Shown here piece by piece: positions 16,088 to 22,807 of a DNA stretch of 23,575 nt. Position 1 is the first letter of the stretch. Each line of letters begins with the position of its first letter. The position numbers and the translations under genes are program-made. The notes under the pieces were generated by a model, which saw only the letters and a program-made list of their open reading frames with translations, ran no database searches and was not told the DNA's origin. This DNA comes from a virus, in the IMG/VR virus record IMGVR_UViG_3300005613_000421, positions 1 through 23,575 of that record; one strand, written 5' to 3'.

Positions 16088-17167
16088 TTAAGAAAGTCCG
16101 GTCATTTGGCCCTGTAGGCGCGGGTTCTCGGAGATGAAGTTGCCGGCATAGAGCAAGTAGCCGACTTCGGCCAACTGATCAACCGGACTCATCAGGGCAC
16201 GGAACTGGAAGCCCTTGGTGGACGGCACGTTACCGATTGTCCCCTTCGGGGTCTCGTCGGTTCCGCTCCGCTTGAAGTTTAGAGTTTCGTATTTACGGCC
16301 TTGAGCGTCGCTCTTCAACGTAATGCCCTTGAAGCCGAAATACTTGGTGTTGACCATGAACATCTTGCCTGACGGGCAGGCCTCATCCTTGGCGATTGGG
16401 GTGCCACGGAAGAACAGGACATTGAACCCTGCGTTGGCTCCGGCGCTCGGTGCCATGCCTGGAATCATGCCGAAGGCGTTCATCCTTGGATATCCGGAAG
16501 TGGTGTAGTTGTTCCTTGTCGTCGGGGTGAGCAAGGCCTCATACTTGCTCCACAGGCTCTTGGTGGTGGAGATGATGTCGGGGGAATCCATTCCGGCCTC
16601 GACCGCATCATAGGCGGTAGCCATCTTGTTCAGGGTGAGGGCACCGGCGGAAGCCAGGTAATAGCCCTTCCATGAGGTGTAGGTGCCACGGGCCAATCCG
16701 CCGTAAGTGGCGACATTGGTGGCATCGTCGGCCGCTCCGTAGAGCGAATCCCATGCGTTGCCGACTCCGGTTCCGGTATACATGTTCTGGGCCATCAGAC
16801 GGGCGATGGACTTTGCCTGAGTGTCGAACTCGATGTCGAAAAGGTTGATTATCCGCTCGTCGCCTTGGTTGAGTGTGGTCTCCAAATCGGCCACGACTAC
16901 AGGCTTGTAGCACATCTTAGGCTCGAACGACGCGGTTACGCGAGTGTTCTGCCTGTCCGAATCCAGAACGTCGGCCACGCCTGTGTTTCCTCCGTTCGTG
17001 GTGTCCTGATACTGGATTGGGAACTCGAATTTGGTCCCGGTAGCCCATTCCTTGGCGTTTTGGAGGATGGTCATCAGCAGAGGCGAACCTTTGGTGATGG
17101 TGTCATAGCACTTCGGGACTATCTTTGTCCGAGTGACGGTCGTCACTTCGGGGGTGAAAGTTGCCAT
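16088..17167 (-). CDS. Major capsid protein (HK97-fold)
   Basis: 359 residues, the expected size, three bases downstream of the scaffold gene and followed by decoration-type genes. It opens TFTPEVTTVTRTKIVPKCYD and has the GTKFEFPIQYQDTTNG strand region (E-loop type). A spine-helix segment carries FDTQAKSIARLMAQNMYTG, then the GAADDATNVATYGGLARG motif that is frequent in phage coat proteins. A central helix/A-domain segment follows (DIISTTKSLWSKYEALLTP), then FMVNTKYFGFKGI and a closing strand set near the C-terminus. It forms the icosahedral shell around the scaffold. The leader is SD-less (TTAAAAAATAACTATG). The order portal, scaffold, coat makes the identification strong. Confidence 0.92.
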   Translation of the reverse strand: MATFTPEVTTVTRTKIVPKCYDTITKGSPLLMTILQNAKEWATGTKFEFPIQYQDTTNGGNTGVADVLDSDRQNTRVTASFEPKMCYKPVVVADLETTLNQGDERIINLFDIEFDTQAKSIARLMAQNMYTGTGVGNAWDSLYGAADDATNVATYGGLARGTYTSWKGYYLASAGALTLNKMATAYDAVEAGMDSPDIISTTKSLWSKYEALLTPTTRNNYTTSGYPRMNAFGMIPGMAPSAGANAGFNVLFFRGTPIAKDEACPSGKMFMVNTKYFGFKGITLKSDAQGRKYETLNFKRSGTDETPKGTIGNVPSTKGFQFRALMSPVDQLAEVGYLLYAGNFISENPRLQGQMTGLS

Positions 17168-17169
17168 AG

Positions 17170-17883
17170 TTATTTTTTAATTCGGCGCAACATCTCTTGA
17201 GGCGACTCGTTGAGGCTTTCCAGGTACTGCTGGTAGGTAGGTTCACCGTCAGGCTGGTCTGTTCCTTCGCTGACCGGCCCGTCGGCATTCCTCTTGGTCA
17301 TGTTCGCCACCACCTTCTGTTCGGTGGACTTAACGGCGAGTTTCATGTCCTTCATGCTCCTATACGCCCCCATAAGGTCGTTATGGCCGTACTTCGTGGC
17401 ATGGGCGAAAAGCAAGTCCTCGTTCAGTTCAGGCTCAAGTTTCCTTATCTCCTCCACTTGGGTCTGTACCCATGAGCTTACCTGTTCCCTTGCCTGCCGT
17501 TCCTTGGCCTGTTCGGCCTCGGACAGCGTGGCCATATATCTCGCTTGGGCGTCCATCAGTTCCCTGTATGTCTTGGGTTGCCAATTTGGGTCGTCCCACG
17601 GATGTTGAGCTTCCTGTTTGTTAGGTTCCGCTTGGGGCGGGTTCTTGGCTCTTGCGAGTTCCTGCGACTTGCGGGTGAACTCCGAGTTGAGCTTGAGGTA
17701 TTCTTCCTTGACCTGCTCGCCCGTGAGTTTCCTTCCGTCAGGAAGCTCGTAAAGCCCTTCTTCTGTCTTTGTCTCTGTTTCTTCGGTTTCGGTCTCCGTT
17801 TCCGGTTGGACCTCTGGGGTCTCCTCCACGGTTTCCTCTACCGTTTCTGCCGTCTCTGGGACGACTGTCGTTTCATCTTCCAT
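17170..17883 (-). CDS. Scaffolding protein
   Basis: 237 residues from the ATG at 17883, chosen over a longer in-frame start at 17919 because the former gives the acidic scaffold-like beginning and lies in the gap after the small gene. Residues 2-50 are almost all Glu, Thr, Val and Pro (low complexity). Then comes LYELPDGRKLTGEQVKEEYL, a motif frequent in phage scaffolds, then long charged helices (residues about 60-170) and a basic helical C-terminus (SPQEMLRRIKK) of the type that contacts the coat. Its position directly before the major capsid gene, with a two-base gap, supports the role. No protease motif is visible. Confidence 0.85.
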   Translation of the reverse strand: MEDETTVVPETAETVEETVEETPEVQPETETETEETETKTEEGLYELPDGRKLTGEQVKEEYLKLNSEFTRKSQELARAKNPPQAEPNKQEAQHPWDDPNWQPKTYRELMDAQARYMATLSEAEQAKERQAREQVSSWVQTQVEEIRKLEPELNEDLLFAHATKYGHNDLMGAYRSMKDMKLAVKSTEQKVVANMTKRNADGPVSEGTDQPDGEPTYQQYLESLNESPQEMLRRIKK

Positions 17884-17943
17884 GTAATTTCGACTGCTTC
17901 CGCATGGGTTGGTCAGCACGACTCCCCGCTTCGGCTTGGTCGG

Positions 17944-18100: not shown

Positions 18101-19837
18101 TCATCGTTTGGCTATCGGTTCTGTAGGACCTATCGGCGTCTCGTTGATCGGCGGTGGAGGCGGCGGTATGACTCCGGTAGCGGAGAACGGGTCTGCCTTG
18201 AAGGCCATCGCCCTTGCGGCCATTCCCTTCGGGTCGTCATACCCTTCCTCAGTCAGGTAATCGGTCATGCTCAGCACGTCCTTGTCATTCTGTGCCCTCT
18301 CGAACTTGAACTTCCTGTCTTCCGGCAGGGTCTTGCCGGGGATTACCCTGACCTCCGTTCCGTCGATGAAGTCGTTCCTCATCAGCTCCATCGTCTCCGT
18401 CGCACCGCTAGGACCGATTGACTTGGCGTAATGGGTTTCGGTGTAGTTCAGCTTTGCCATATGGTAGAACCAGTTGAACAGTTCCCTCGATACGTAATCC
18501 ACCACTTTTACCAGTTCTGTCAGGTTCTGGTAGCTCTGGTCGATGAGTGCTAGACGGCCGGCTTTCGTCTCCGTCCCTTCCCTCTCTCCCCTGAACGCGG
18601 AACTGGCGGCCATTATGTTGTCTATCTCGTTCCTCGAATCGACCATGTCCTCATAGACGAAATTGGGCAGCGGGCTTCCTGTCTCCCTCTGGACTCCGGC
18701 CACCACTCCCTTGCCCCAAATCAGTCCTTCGGCGTCATATTTCAGCTTCCGTGCCTCGTCCTGCGACATCACGCTCGAATCAACCTTGGTTATTCCGTTG
18801 ACCATGCGGGCATTGTCGTCTATCTGCCTCTTGCGCCTGTCCACGGCCTCCTGAAGGGGGATTGCCTGCTCGATGAGCGATGTCCTGCCTATCGGCTTAC
18901 GTTCGTCGTTCAGTATCGTGGCGAAGATGTAGGGCTTCCTGGGGCGGTCGAAATGGTTGAACAGATACTGCTGAAGGCCTAAATCCTCCATGTCGCTCTC
19001 GTCTATGGCCATTCTCTCCTCCTGCGACTCTTCCGCCACCCTAAATAGCGTATCGGGCGGGTTCTCCTTCGTGTTGGCCAGCATGAAGGCCTCAGAGTCG
19101 TTCAGCCTGATTCCGTCCCAGTCCCAATACGGATTCCTCTTCCTCTCCAGTATCAGGCTTCCGTACTTGACTATCTTCCAGTCGCCAATCCAAGCCTCCT
19201 TGTAGGTAACTTGCTTGCCTTCTATGAAAGCCTGTGTCTCGTCGTTCCCGGAGGTCTTGAGTATTTCCGCCTTCTTGGACGGGTATTTTGCTATCAGTCC
19301 GGTGAGGGAACATTCAATCTGCTCTATGGCGAAGTCCGAATCCTCCTCCTTCGTGGCCTTTGGTGAGAACCTGACCTTGCGAGGATCGACTGACCTGACG
19401 TTGAAGTCGTTCAGTTTCGGGTCCCAAAACGGCTTAAGGACAAGCAATCTGGAGAAATACAGAAACCTGAGGGCTGACCTCAGTTCGCCCTCCACGTTCA
19501 GATCCTCGTACCTCTGGACCAGATACCTCTCCTGTGTCCTGGCAAGTCCCTTGGCCTCGTCTGTCTCCCTTCCTGGAAGAACGTTAGGTTTTGGCGGGTT
19601 TGCTATCAGGGCGTTAATCGTGGATTCTGAATCCCTGAATATCCTGTTTGACCTCACCCTGTGTGATTTGGCCGACACCCTCAAGAGATGGTTCGGCAGG
19701 CGTTTGGGGTCACAGTCGTAATATGTGGTGTTCAGGTCATATACCTGACTTATCGTGTCCCAAACGGAAGATGCCGAATCCCATCGGCTGTCTATCAGTT
19801 TCTTTAGCTGTTGGTCGCTCAACGTTCCTATGTCCAT
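18101..19837 (-). CDS. Portal protein
   Basis: 578 residues, positioned after TerL and before scaffold/coat, the normal place for the portal. Features typical of P22-type and related portals are visible. The N-terminal helices include QVYDLNTTYYDCDPKRLPN. Long wing strands include LVLKPFWDPKLNDFNVRSVD with PRKVRFSP following. A stem/crown helical region contains GRTSLIEQAIPLQEAVDRRK and DNARMVNGITKVD, and then SAFRGEREGTETKAGRLALI. The C-terminus ends in a Pro run (IPPPPPP) and is probably flexible. As a dodecamer it forms the DNA channel and docks the terminase and adaptor. The leader is T-rich with no SD and begins 6 bases after a terminator T-run. Confident from length, position and pattern. 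Confidence 0.9.
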   Translation of the reverse strand: MDIGTLSDQQLKKLIDSRWDSASSVWDTISQVYDLNTTYYDCDPKRLPNHLLRVSAKSHRVRSNRIFRDSESTINALIANPPKPNVLPGRETDEAKGLARTQERYLVQRYEDLNVEGELRSALRFLYFSRLLVLKPFWDPKLNDFNVRSVDPRKVRFSPKATKEEDSDFAIEQIECSLTGLIAKYPSKKAEILKTSGNDETQAFIEGKQVTYKEAWIGDWKIVKYGSLILERKRNPYWDWDGIRLNDSEAFMLANTKENPPDTLFRVAEESQEERMAIDESDMEDLGLQQYLFNHFDRPRKPYIFATILNDERKPIGRTSLIEQAIPLQEAVDRRKRQIDDNARMVNGITKVDSSVMSQDEARKLKYDAEGLIWGKGVVAGVQRETGSPLPNFVYEDMVDSRNEIDNIMAASSAFRGEREGTETKAGRLALIDQSYQNLTELVKVVDYVSRELFNWFYHMAKLNYTETHYAKSIGPSGATETMELMRNDFIDGTEVRVIPGKTLPEDRKFKFERAQNDKDVLSMTDYLTEEGYDDPKGMAARAMAFKADPFSATGVIPPPPPPINETPIGPTEPIAKR

Positions 19838-19842
19838 AAAAG

Positions 19843-19873
19843 AAAAAACGGGAAAACCGTATAGGTTTCCCGT
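19843..19873 (-). terminator. Intrinsic terminator immediately before the portal gene
   Basis: On the minus strand, arm ACGGGAAACC (19873-19864), loop TATAC, arm GGTTTTCCCGT (19858-19848) and then six T's down to 19843. This is a classic rho-independent terminator with one bulged T. It lies only 6 bases before the portal ATG at 19837, downstream of a promoter-like sequence, so it must be read through or act as an attenuator. Confidence 0.8.
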
Positions 19874-19877
19874 CTTC

Positions 19878-19911
19878 AGATAGGGCTTTCGCCGCTCCTT
19901 AGATTAGGGCT
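19878..19911 (-). promoter_or_regulatory. Paired direct repeats between promoter and terminator
   Basis: On the plus strand AGATAGGGCT (19878-19887) and AGATTAGGGCT (19901-19911) are near-identical with their ends 24 bases apart, about two helical turns. The lie between the promoter -10 and the terminator suggests a paired protein-binding site (operator), or a leader-RNA element. Confidence 0.4.
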
Positions 19912-19925
19912 GTTGTCTTAATTCA

Positions 19926-19954
19926 AGAATAGCACATTATCGTTGAAAAATCAA
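19926..19954 (-). promoter_or_regulatory. Promoter candidate before the portal/head operon
   Basis: Minus strand: TTGATT (19954-19949), a 17-base spacer, then TATTCT (19931-19926) preceded by TGC, an extended -10. The same bases also fit a Bacteroidota-type arrangement, TTTG then 20 bases then TATTCTTG. A perfect inverted repeat, GAAAAAT-nnn-ATTTTTC (19945-19961), overlaps the -35. The -35 lies on the end of the small gene upstream. Confidence 0.5.
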
Positions 19955-20124
19955 ATTTTTCCCAATGTCAGCCTGTCATGCCTCTCAACTTCCCTGATGT
20001 TTCCTTCATGGTCAAAATGTATGGTGGCCGAGCCCGACCTTATGGCGAACACGCCGTAAGCCTCAAGTCTCCTGAAGGACAGGAACAGCTTGGCCTCTTC
20101 GTCGGTTAGTTCAATCCTCTGCAT
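19951..20124 (-). CDS. Small phage protein following TerL, 57 aa
   Basis: 57 residues from ATG 20124, which overlaps the TerL stop by 14 bases; an upstream in-frame ATG (20142) lies deeper in TerL and is less likely. The sequence ELTDEEAKLFLSFRRLEAYG, then VFAIRSGSATIHFDHEGNIR, matches a small family often found between TerL and portal in phages: a helix followed by a two- or three-stranded sheet with G-S-A-T-I-H-F-D. No function known to me. It ends at the edge of the 113-base regulatory gap. Confidence 0.7.
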   Translation of the reverse strand: MQRIELTDEEAKLFLSFRRLEAYGVFAIRSGSATIHFDHEGNIREVERHDRLTLGKI

Positions 20125-21670
20125 ACTTGATGTGTTCCTCAAGATTTAGCCTGAACCCGTCCTCCGTCCTCACTATCGCCTCTGGCCTGTCAACCTTGTC
20201 GGGTATCAGTATCGCATCTCCCAATCCTCCATAACGAGCAAGCTCATAGAACAGCAGGGCGAAAAGTAGATGGTCTTCCTTGGTCTTCCCTTCCCATACG
20301 TAACGCTCAATCCCCCGACTGTCTTCTTCCTTGACTTTCCTCATCGTCGTGCAGTGGGCTATGAAAAGCCTGAACATGGCGTCAGCAGGGCAATGTATCG
20401 GTATAAGACCGTTCTGCATCCTTGAGACAACGAAGTCAATAAGCCTGTTCCTGTCGGCCTTGATTATTCCCCGCTCCTCTCCCTCACCGAACCTGGCTAT
20501 CCTGTTGCTCTCCCTGTCCCTCTGGAGATAGCACATCGAGAACTTCGGGTTGTTGGCCACATAAGCCCTCGAAATCTCGTTTTCGGGCTGGGCGTCTATT
20601 ACCGCTATCGGGTCGTACGTCTTCACCAGTTCGTCCAAATCCGACCAGTCGTGGAACCGTCCGAACCTGGTTATCCCCTTCTCCGAGCCTAGGACAAAAT
20701 GTTTTACGCTTCCCACATCAACTCCCAAGTACCATTTGCCGGTCTCTTGGGTGTGTGGAGTCCAGCAGTCAAGCAAGAGAGTGCGTGTTATCGCCAAAAC
20801 AGACGGAGTGTATGGCTCTCCAAGAACGAAGTTATGAAAGTATTCCTCAGAACCCTCGGAGTCCTTGATGATGTCGTCAGCCGTTATCCAGTCGCATATA
20901 AGATGTGACAGGTGATATCCGCTTACCGTTCCCTCTGGACGAGTGGCTATCCACTTTCCCTTACGACGAGCTTCGTTGGGCATTTCCCCATTGCACTCCT
21001 TGCAGATGAATATCCGGCGTTCCATATCTATTGAGTCAGGCCAGTCCATCGTCACCCATTCCTTGCAGTGAGGACAAAGGCAATGCCATTCCTTCATGTC
21101 TGACTTCTTCCATTCCTCGTCAATCAGGTCGCCGTCGGTAGTCGGGTTTGAGAATGACCAGCGCCCCTTGTACTTGGATGATTTTGTTCGTGACTTCATT
21201 GTCTCCATCTGGAGCTGGTCTGACCTGCTGGCCTCGTCATGAATGACCACGTCAGCAGTGGTGGAGATTGCGGCAGTCTTACTTACCGTTCCCTTATAGT
21301 GGATGAAGCGTCCGTCAATCTCCTTGCGTTCAACAGAGTCGGAATCCATATCACCAAGCACGTGCCTGTTCTCCTTGATTAGAGGATTTACCTTAGAGGT
21401 GACAAATTCTCTAGTGTCAGAATCAGTAGGAAACGAGTAGATTATTCCTAGCCTAAGATACTTAAGGGCATACATCACCTTGAGGGTGAAGACAACGCTT
21501 TTCCCTATCTGGGCCGCCCCCTTGATGACGATATTCGGGTTCCAGTCAGAGAGGACATCCAGCCAGAACAGCCTGTGCCTGAAAGAAAGCGGCTCGCCCT
21601 TCTCGGTCTTGAGTCCGCTCTCGGCTATCCAGGTGAGGATAGAGTGCCGCTTTATGTCGTCTTTGGGCAT
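20111..21670 (-). CDS. terL: Terminase large subunit (GpA-like, with zinc ribbon)
   Basis: 519 residues from the ATG at 21670, which follows the stop of a 22-residue peptide in a TGATG overlap; a longer in-frame start at 21724 would run through that peptide and is disfavoured. The ATPase domain has Walker A KGAAQIGKS (residues 50-58) and Walker B VVIHDEA (141-147), with a coupling motif near SFSNPTTDGD. A four-Cys zinc ribbon follows (C199-P-H-C202 and C223-K-E-C226), as in the lambda GpA family. The nuclease domain has GVDVG (D318), VIDAQ (D359) and TKEDH (D466), a plausible RNase H-like metal site. It cuts and pumps phage DNA into the prohead through the portal. Confidence 0.92.
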   Translation of the reverse strand: MPKDDIKRHSILTWIAESGLKTEKGEPLSFRHRLFWLDVLSDWNPNIVIKGAAQIGKSVVFTLKVMYALKYLRLGIIYSFPTDSDTREFVTSKVNPLIKENRHVLGDMDSDSVERKEIDGRFIHYKGTVSKTAAISTTADVVIHDEASRSDQLQMETMKSRTKSSKYKGRWSFSNPTTDGDLIDEEWKKSDMKEWHCLCPHCKEWVTMDWPDSIDMERRIFICKECNGEMPNEARRKGKWIATRPEGTVSGYHLSHLICDWITADDIIKDSEGSEEYFHNFVLGEPYTPSVLAITRTLLLDCWTPHTQETGKWYLGVDVGSVKHFVLGSEKGITRFGRFHDWSDLDELVKTYDPIAVIDAQPENEISRAYVANNPKFSMCYLQRDRESNRIARFGEGEERGIIKADRNRLIDFVVSRMQNGLIPIHCPADAMFRLFIAHCTTMRKVKEEDSRGIERYVWEGKTKEDHLLFALLFYELARYGGLGDAILIPDKVDRPEAIVRTEDGFRLNLEEHIKYAED

Positions 21671-21738
21671 CAGATGAGTATCCCTATGATTATGAGCAGG
21701 AGAACTACGATAATGCACCCGCAACCGTCATTGTCCAT
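21670..21738 (-). CDS. 22-residue membrane peptide coupled to TerL
   Basis: ATG at 21738 (ATATG context), then MDNDGCGC followed by 14 almost uninterrupted aliphatic residues (IIVVLLLIIIGILI) and a TGA that shares its A with the TerL ATG (TGATG). The product has a short acidic N-terminus with two Cys and one membrane span reaching the C-terminus. It is far below ordinary gene-finder limits. The exact stop/start overlap and the shared start context support real translation. It could be a lysis/holin-type or membrane-signalling peptide, or simply a leader that couples TerL translation. Confidence 0.6.
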   Translation of the reverse strand: MDNDGCGCIIVVLLLIIIGILI

Positions 21739-22231: not shown

Positions 22232-22371
22232 TTTCCCTCGATTAGTTTGGCCAGTTTTTTCCTTATTCCCTTAAGTCCTGACTGTTTGGCTTCCAATTCC
22301 TCAATCACCTCCTCTTCGGTAGAGTCGCCTATGATGACCGCTTTGCCGTCCCCCAATTCGTCATTCTCCAT
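22228..22371 (-). CDS. Small charged protein after TerS, 47 aa
   Basis: ATG at 22371 lies inside the end of the TerS gene (11-base overlap) and the stop overlaps the next ATG (ATGA at 22231). The product begins acidic (ENDELGDGK), includes VIIGDSTEEEVIEELEAKQS and ends basic (IRKKLAKLIEGK), an amphipathic helix. AAAGGA about nine bases before the ATG is one of the few SD-like sequences in the window. No family recognised. Confidence 0.65.
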   Translation of the reverse strand: MENDELGDGKAVIIGDSTEEEVIEELEAKQSGLKGIRKKLAKLIEGK

Positions 22372-22807
22372 AAAGCGTGTCCTTTACTGCCTCATCGAGC
22401 TGTTTTGCCCTTTCGGCGACTTTCGGGTTGGTGAGGATGTTTATCGTGGCGTCAATCCTTGCGGTCGGTTCCTTTGTCCGCTCCTTCAGCCTGTTGTATT
22501 CCCGGACTGCCTGAAGCGATGTTTGTGGAGAAGCTCCCTGATTTATCCAGAACAATAATCTTTTGTCAACATGCTCGTCATTGAGTCCGCCGCTCTCCAG
22601 AAGGTCGTTTATCCTGGTGTTCACCGTGTCGTTTGACAGTAACCTGTATGCCCCAGTCCTAGCCACCTCATACGACCCCTTCTTGTTCGTATCAATGTTG
22701 TATGCCTCTATGTATGCCTGAGTGCCGTTGCCGAACATCTCCCTGTCAGTGGTATAGAGCTTGCAGAATAGTTCCTGCTTTGGAGTCAGTTTTGGCTTGT
22801 TGGGCAT
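22361..22807 (-). CDS. terS: Terminase small subunit
   Basis: 148 residues. The N-terminus KLTPKQELFCKLYTTDREMF, then GTQAYIEAYNI and RTGAYRLLSNDTVNTRINDL, is the standard Terminase_2-type DNA-binding helix-turn-helix region. The central and C-terminal parts are helical (oligomerisation) with a basic/acidic tail ending DTLYGE. It recognises the packaging site and hands the DNA to TerL, three genes downstream. The start at 22807 has ATATG and no SD. Confidence 0.85.
   Translation of the reverse strand: MPNKPKLTPKQELFCKLYTTDREMFGNGTQAYIEAYNIDTNKKGSYEVARTGAYRLLSNDTVNTRINDLLESGGLNDEHVDKRLLFWINQGASPQTSLQAVREYNRLKERTKEPTARIDATINILTNPKVAERAKQLDEAVKDTLYGE

Follow-up and report, generated by a model that had tools for sequence, protein, structure and literature searches.

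Why should a promoter be separated from the gene that it faces by a transcription terminator? The question is raised by an uncultured tailed phage, in which the stretch from terminase to portal holds both signals side by side, just ahead of the portal gene.

Gene order and phage context

The DNA that we analyzed, hereafter the window, is a 23,575-base fragment of the IMG/VR record IMGVR_UViG_3300005613_000421 (positions 1-23,575). Its late genes are located on the minus strand, as follows.

22361-22807, minus strand: TerS, late operon
20111-21724, minus strand: terminase large subunit TerL, GpA type, upstream of c14 (PF05876, E = 2.6e-20; PHROG 675, E = 7.8e-82)
19951-20124, minus strand: small gene c14, 57 aa from its ATG, or 63 aa if translation starts at an upstream TTG (c14 HMM, E = 4e-23)
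18101-19837, minus strand: portal, first gene behind the putative attenuator, ATG at 19837 (PHROG 156, E = 3.8e-12)
17170-17919, minus strand: probable scaffold gene
16088-17167, minus strand: major capsid

The plus strand carries, facing the late operon, genes for a DPBB-domain lytic transglycosylase (2269-2778) and, by a weak match, a HAD-like hydrolase (1834-2124). The portal protein is 44-56% identical to those of its IMG/VR relatives, and the nearest named phage by this protein is a TM7 phage (25% identity). A scan of bacterial genomes with the portal proteins gave matches in two metagenome bins only, one of them Scalindua. Shine-Dalgarno-like motifs are scarce before ORFs of at least 120 aa (present at 3 of the window's 20 and, counting 4-mers, at 3-13 in each of the related contigs G001-G019), so the hosts may start translation largely without Shine-Dalgarno sequences.

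Promoter, leader and terminator ahead of the portal gene

The following features lie between c14 and the portal gene; those of the promoter and the U-run were read from the sequence.

19949-19954, minus strand: -35-like hexamer TTGATT, overlapping the c14 stop codon
19926-19934, minus strand: extended -10, TG-C-TATTCT (TG at 19934-19933, TATTCT at 19931-19926)
19894-19910, minus strand: small hairpin GCCCU-AAUCUA-AGG(A)GC, predicted to form once the terminator has formed (MFE of the full leader)
19848-19874, minus strand: intrinsic terminator hairpin, ranking first among the terminator-like sites of the region scanned
19843-19848, minus strand: U-run of the terminator, TTTTTT

The first-pass annotation of this DNA had described an extended -10 promoter, TTGATT-17-TATTCT, and we found it where it had been placed, on the minus strand and with a spacing of 17 nt; the transcription start is predicted near 19919. 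Its consensus score is 8/12, under the scanner threshold, and taken alone it is therefore not above chance. A consensus scan of the region likewise revealed no excess of promoters or terminators. The annotation had also placed a strong hairpin and T-run 6 bases from the portal ATG; the hairpin and T-run hold up, and the gap to the ATG is 5 nt. The leader between the promoter and the end of the terminator is approximately 75 nt long, and the folding energy of an 84-nt leader is -26.2 kcal/mol (z = -3.5), a value that none of 200 shuffled sequences equaled. An AAGGAG in the leader was considered as part of a short ORF or as a Shine-Dalgarno sequence and rejected, because no start codon follows at a suitable spacing.

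Conservation of the layout among related phages

Four IMG/VR scans with portal proteins and the bacterial-genome scan yielded 85 distinct portal-upstream regions, two of which are cut by contig ends, leaving 83 that could be assessed. The promoter-leader-hairpin-U-run layout is kept before the portal gene in about 55 of the 83. In these relatives the gap between TerL and portal contains a sigma-70-like promoter, a short leader, and a hairpin with a U-run, and the portal start follows within a few bases. Among the 42 relatives whose antiterminator (described below) could be parsed, 24 have a perfect TATAAT (6/6), and 37-38 have a -10 with at least 5/6 matches within 45 nt before the antiterminator (mean of 20 and maximum of 30 in shuffled sequences). 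Judged across relatives, the layout as a whole is far beyond chance. A descriptor search run on 19 long related contigs showed the element to be single-copy per genome and present only before the portal gene, the other matches being noise inside coding regions.

The switch is absent from the other 28 regions; relatives of this kind, mostly of one clade, have neither leader nor hairpin. In most of these attenuator-less relatives (among L011, L022, L025-L031 and L034-L057) a gap of 5-7 nt separates the portal -10 from the start codon, and the portal mRNA would therefore be leaderless.

GroES- and GroEL-like genes are located between TerS and TerL in most relatives (G001-G015, e.g., L228, L232, and L236), with none at that place in the window; GroEL/Cpn60 genes also occur in the distant TM7 phage MG269973 and in MW202566. 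We considered the GroES/GroEL genes as a partner of the element and rejected them, since they are present in most relatives yet do not track it.

A predicted antiterminator shares a strand with the terminator

In almost all of the relatives that could be parsed, the terminator 5' arm doubles as the 3' arm of an upstream hairpin, the antiterminator. Its 5' side usually consists of a 4-bp outer stem, 3 nt (AAA, UAA, or AAC), and an inner stem of 3-5 bp, and its loop is 5-8 nt long and A/C-rich, AACAC being the most frequent. The 3' side runs through the inner strand, one intervening C or A, and the outer strand, and both of these strands belong to the terminator 5' arm.

The pairing was assessed by an alignment-free swap test, in which the fold energy of the 32 nt upstream plus the first 11 nt of the arm was compared between each phage's own combination and combinations swapped between phages. 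The mean for 38 leaders was -7.02 kcal/mol with their own arms and -4.92 kcal/mol with swapped arms (z = -7.35), and none of 20,000 permutations was as low. As controls, taking the upstream piece from 40 nt further off gave z = +0.8, and 68 further terminators from intergenic regions of these phages gave -6.06 (own) and -6.07 (swapped; z = 0.04). Compensatory changes were looked for in the related phages and are present in both stems of 42 parsed antiterminators, which were picked because they pair, so that the unbiased evidence is the swap test of the 38 leaders with its controls. The pair types are CG/GC/TA at inner pair 1, TA/GC/AT/CG at inner pair 3, CG/GC/TA at outer pair 3, and GC/AT/CG at outer pair 4. 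Within the same 42, the 3' halves of the terminators covary with the shared strand (z = -11.6).

The two structures are predicted to form in order. When the RNA ends just behind the antiterminator, this hairpin is the MFE structure in 38 of the 42; once the terminator is complete, it is so in 2 of the 42. The terminator is much the stronger of the two (median energies, -19.8 vs -4.9), and termination should therefore be the default.

The antiterminator of the window, CCC-UAA-UCU-[25 nt with GGC-GAAA-GCC]-AGA-C-GGG (-12.4 kcal/mol), has the following parts.

19907-19909, minus strand: 5' strand of the outer stem, CCC, within the first repeat, pairing with 19869-19871
19901-19903, minus strand: 5' strand of the inner stem, UCU, within the first repeat, pairing with 19873-19875
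19876-19900, minus strand: extended apical part with GGC-GAAA-GCC and the second repeat, replacing the short A/C-rich loop (by folding)
19869-19875, minus strand: switch strand AGA-C-GGG, common to both hairpins, serving the antiterminator as its 3' strand and the terminator as its 5' arm (by folding and the swap test)

This is a variant form; extended apical parts are also found in L019 and L002, which lie near the window on the portal tree. With its own arm the window leader has an MFE of -13.5 vs -9.3 with the arms of other phages, its own being the best of 38. As the RNA 3' end moves through 19869-19855 the antiterminator remains the MFE structure; by 19851 the terminator has replaced it.

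Two near-identical repeats spaced by two helical turns had been pointed out in the first-pass annotation. The copies, AGCCCTAATCT (19911-19901) and AAGCCCTATCT (19888-19878), are real; they lie 23 nt apart and differ by a 1-nt indel, and a comparable match arose in 11 of 1000 shuffles. The first copy pairs with the terminator 5' arm and hence serves as the antiterminator 5' half. The second sits inside the extended apical part, and we see no role for the two-turn spacing.

Some relatives depart from the usual form. The outer stem is doubtful in L070 and L075, as is the entire antiterminator parse in L012, L071, and L209. In a subclade comprising L085, L087, L090, and L092 the antiterminator/terminator pairing is kept and the U-run is degenerate; there the switch may act weakly or otherwise. 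L111 and L210 have a second, unrelated hairpin between the element and the portal start.

The small upstream gene c14

The c14 family, whose members are usually 57-90 aa long, is encoded directly upstream of the promoter. Its profile was found within 900 nt upstream of the portal gene in 55 of the 83 assessable regions and was missing from 28. The element is present in all 55 c14-bearing regions, in 52 of which the automatic rule reported the terminator. Among the other three, the portal start of L003 had been placed late, and in L111 and L210 the element, of standard architecture, lies further upstream; the c14 matches of these two are weak (E = 0.07 and 0.0035). The switch is absent from all 28 c14-less regions, three of which trip the terminator rule: L049 and L054 through AT-rich promoter sequence, and L056 through a plain hairpin with no antiterminator. 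In full contigs c14 occurs once, at the place upstream of the portal gene, and there is none in the leaderless phages G016 and G017.

On the portal tree, c14 and the attenuator change together 4-5 times; with so few independent changes a sign test cannot reach significance (at best p = 0.125). Since the two flank the promoter, losing both while keeping the promoter takes two deletions, which argues for a functional link.

AlphaFold2 models of c14 show a small alpha-beta fold, a helix plus a beta-hairpin (pLDDT of 88 for the window and 91 for L076). Sequence searches gave no match to a Pfam or PHROG family or to an RNA-binding family, and a fold search gave no significant match to solved structures (MADS-box matches, E > 0.3). 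A resemblance to DUF2292/YezD or XtrA was considered and was not supported by Pfam. The median net charge is -1; c14 is hence not basic, which favors polymerase binding as much as RNA binding. From its position and co-occurrence, the c14 product is a tentative candidate for the antitermination factor of this element.

Proposed mechanism and alternative explanations

Judging from sequence and folding, we consider it quite probable that the element is a promoter-proximal transcription attenuator before the portal/head operon, and its cis-acting part is best read as holding back the head genes. RNA polymerase would start at the promoter and make the antiterminator hairpin first (in the window, CCC-UAA-UCU ... 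AGA-C-GGG). Were this hairpin left unstabilized, newly made GGUUUUCCCG would capture its 3' strand to build the intrinsic terminator, of which that strand would be the 5' arm; transcription would then end after approximately 75 nt. If a trans-acting factor held the antiterminator, the polymerase would read through into the portal gene; the candidate factor is the product of c14, the gene immediately upstream, which is probably expressed together with terminase. The comparison of relatives supports the two competing conserved structures, the order in which folding predicts that they form, and their position; we infer termination itself and its regulation. The first-pass annotation had suggested that the element, as an attenuator, may control the switch from terminase to head genes, or else make a short regulatory RNA. 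The conserved, covarying antiterminator favors the attenuator over the small RNA, and the position of the element is consistent with control of that switch. Leader-peptide or ribosome-mediated attenuation was rejected, because the -10 ends a median of 17 nt before the antiterminator and leaves no room for a leader peptide.

A factor, perhaps c14, might instead load onto the polymerase via promoter DNA, as in the lambda Q and AlpA systems, so that the terminator is ignored and the RNA antiterminator is secondary. Those systems too have the factor gene ahead of the promoter, followed by a short leader, the terminator, and late genes (PMC6606751, PMC9371919); here c14 lies directly upstream of the promoter, and small polymerase-binding phage antiterminators such as P7 exist (PMC6624301). 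This explanation nevertheless leaves unaccounted for the conservation and covariation of an antiterminator that overlaps with the arm of the terminator, and no known Q or antiterm family is found in the window or the 19 related contigs (PF06530 or PF03589, 0 of 20 records; control genomes were positive); we regard it as unlikely.

It is less likely still that the terminated transcript is itself the product, a short regulatory or packaging RNA of the pRNA or 6S kind. The promoter and terminator do bracket some 75 nt, in a single copy per genome, but the most conserved hairpin could not persist in the completed, terminated transcript, and its conservation therefore makes sense only during transcription. 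Moreover, the loop and stem sequences vary widely, and the Rfam 15 covariance models gave no match at the gathering score in the window and 14 relatives. That a plain terminator merely ends the terminase transcript beside an ordinary, unregulated promoter is hardly tenable: each part alone is close to chance in consensus scans, but a terminator in this place would shut off the gene that the promoter serves, and the control terminators of the same genomes lack the preference for their own arm (z = 0.04 vs -7.35 for the element).

Comparison with known antitermination systems

Classical phage late-gene antitermination depends on Q, N, put, or P7-like factors that act on the polymerase (PMC6606751, PMC6624301, PMC9378689). 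The attenuator that we propose for these phages has, by sequence and folding, two features of its class, namely an intrinsic terminator between promoter and gene and a strand-sharing alternative hairpin with covariation. A riboswitch-like antiterminator/terminator switch before phage head genes did not turn up in a limited literature search. Dozens of phages that lack cultured hosts keep the putative switch, and a possible protein partner is encoded beside it; purified transcription components would therefore suffice for a test, with no need of phage growth. The two may form a new pair, gained and lost together in a large group of uncultured phages, in which c14 would bind an RNA antiterminator family, or the polymerase there, and time head-gene expression; we put this forward tentatively, at somewhat less than an even chance. 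Such a group would offer many natural RNA-protein pairs, whose recognition could be read from co-variation.

The RAT sequences recognized in BglG/SacY/LicT systems are hairpins of approximately 25-30 nt with one or more asymmetric internal loops that overlap the terminator 5' arm. The phage hairpin is comparable and overlaps the arm in the same way; however, its stem and loop sequences are different and varying, and it precedes phage head genes rather than sugar operons. The CAT_RBD protein domain (PF03123) was found in 0 of the 20 records, with positive control genomes.

In the ANTAR-dependent attenuators of EutV and NasR, a protein can stabilize a hairpin that competes with a terminator (PMC3369931), and the phage element shares this competition. 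Those attenuators are defined by two hairpins with hexanucleotide loops bearing A at position 1 and G at position 4 (PMC3369931), whereas the phage element usually has one hairpin with a 5-8-nt A/C-rich loop and lacks the conserved A1/G4 hexaloop. A search for the ANTAR domain (PF03861) gave 0 of 20 records, the control genomes being silent too. A phage-encoded NusG N-terminal domain (PF02357), as in NusG, LoaP, or RfaH, was not found.

With lambda Q, its late promoter and tR', and with Pseudomonas AlpA, the phage locus would share a regulator gene directly upstream of the promoter, a short terminated leader, and late genes, including structural ones, behind the terminator (PMC6606751, PMC9371919), a likeness that holds if c14 is the regulator. 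It differs in that no Q or AlpA homologue was found and c14 has no recognized fold, and in that the terminator here competes with a conserved antiterminator hairpin. The put RNA of HK022 acts on the polymerase by itself (PMC9378689). Like put, the leader would be a nascent phage RNA that lets the polymerase pass terminators; unlike put, its hairpin overlaps the very terminator that it would block.
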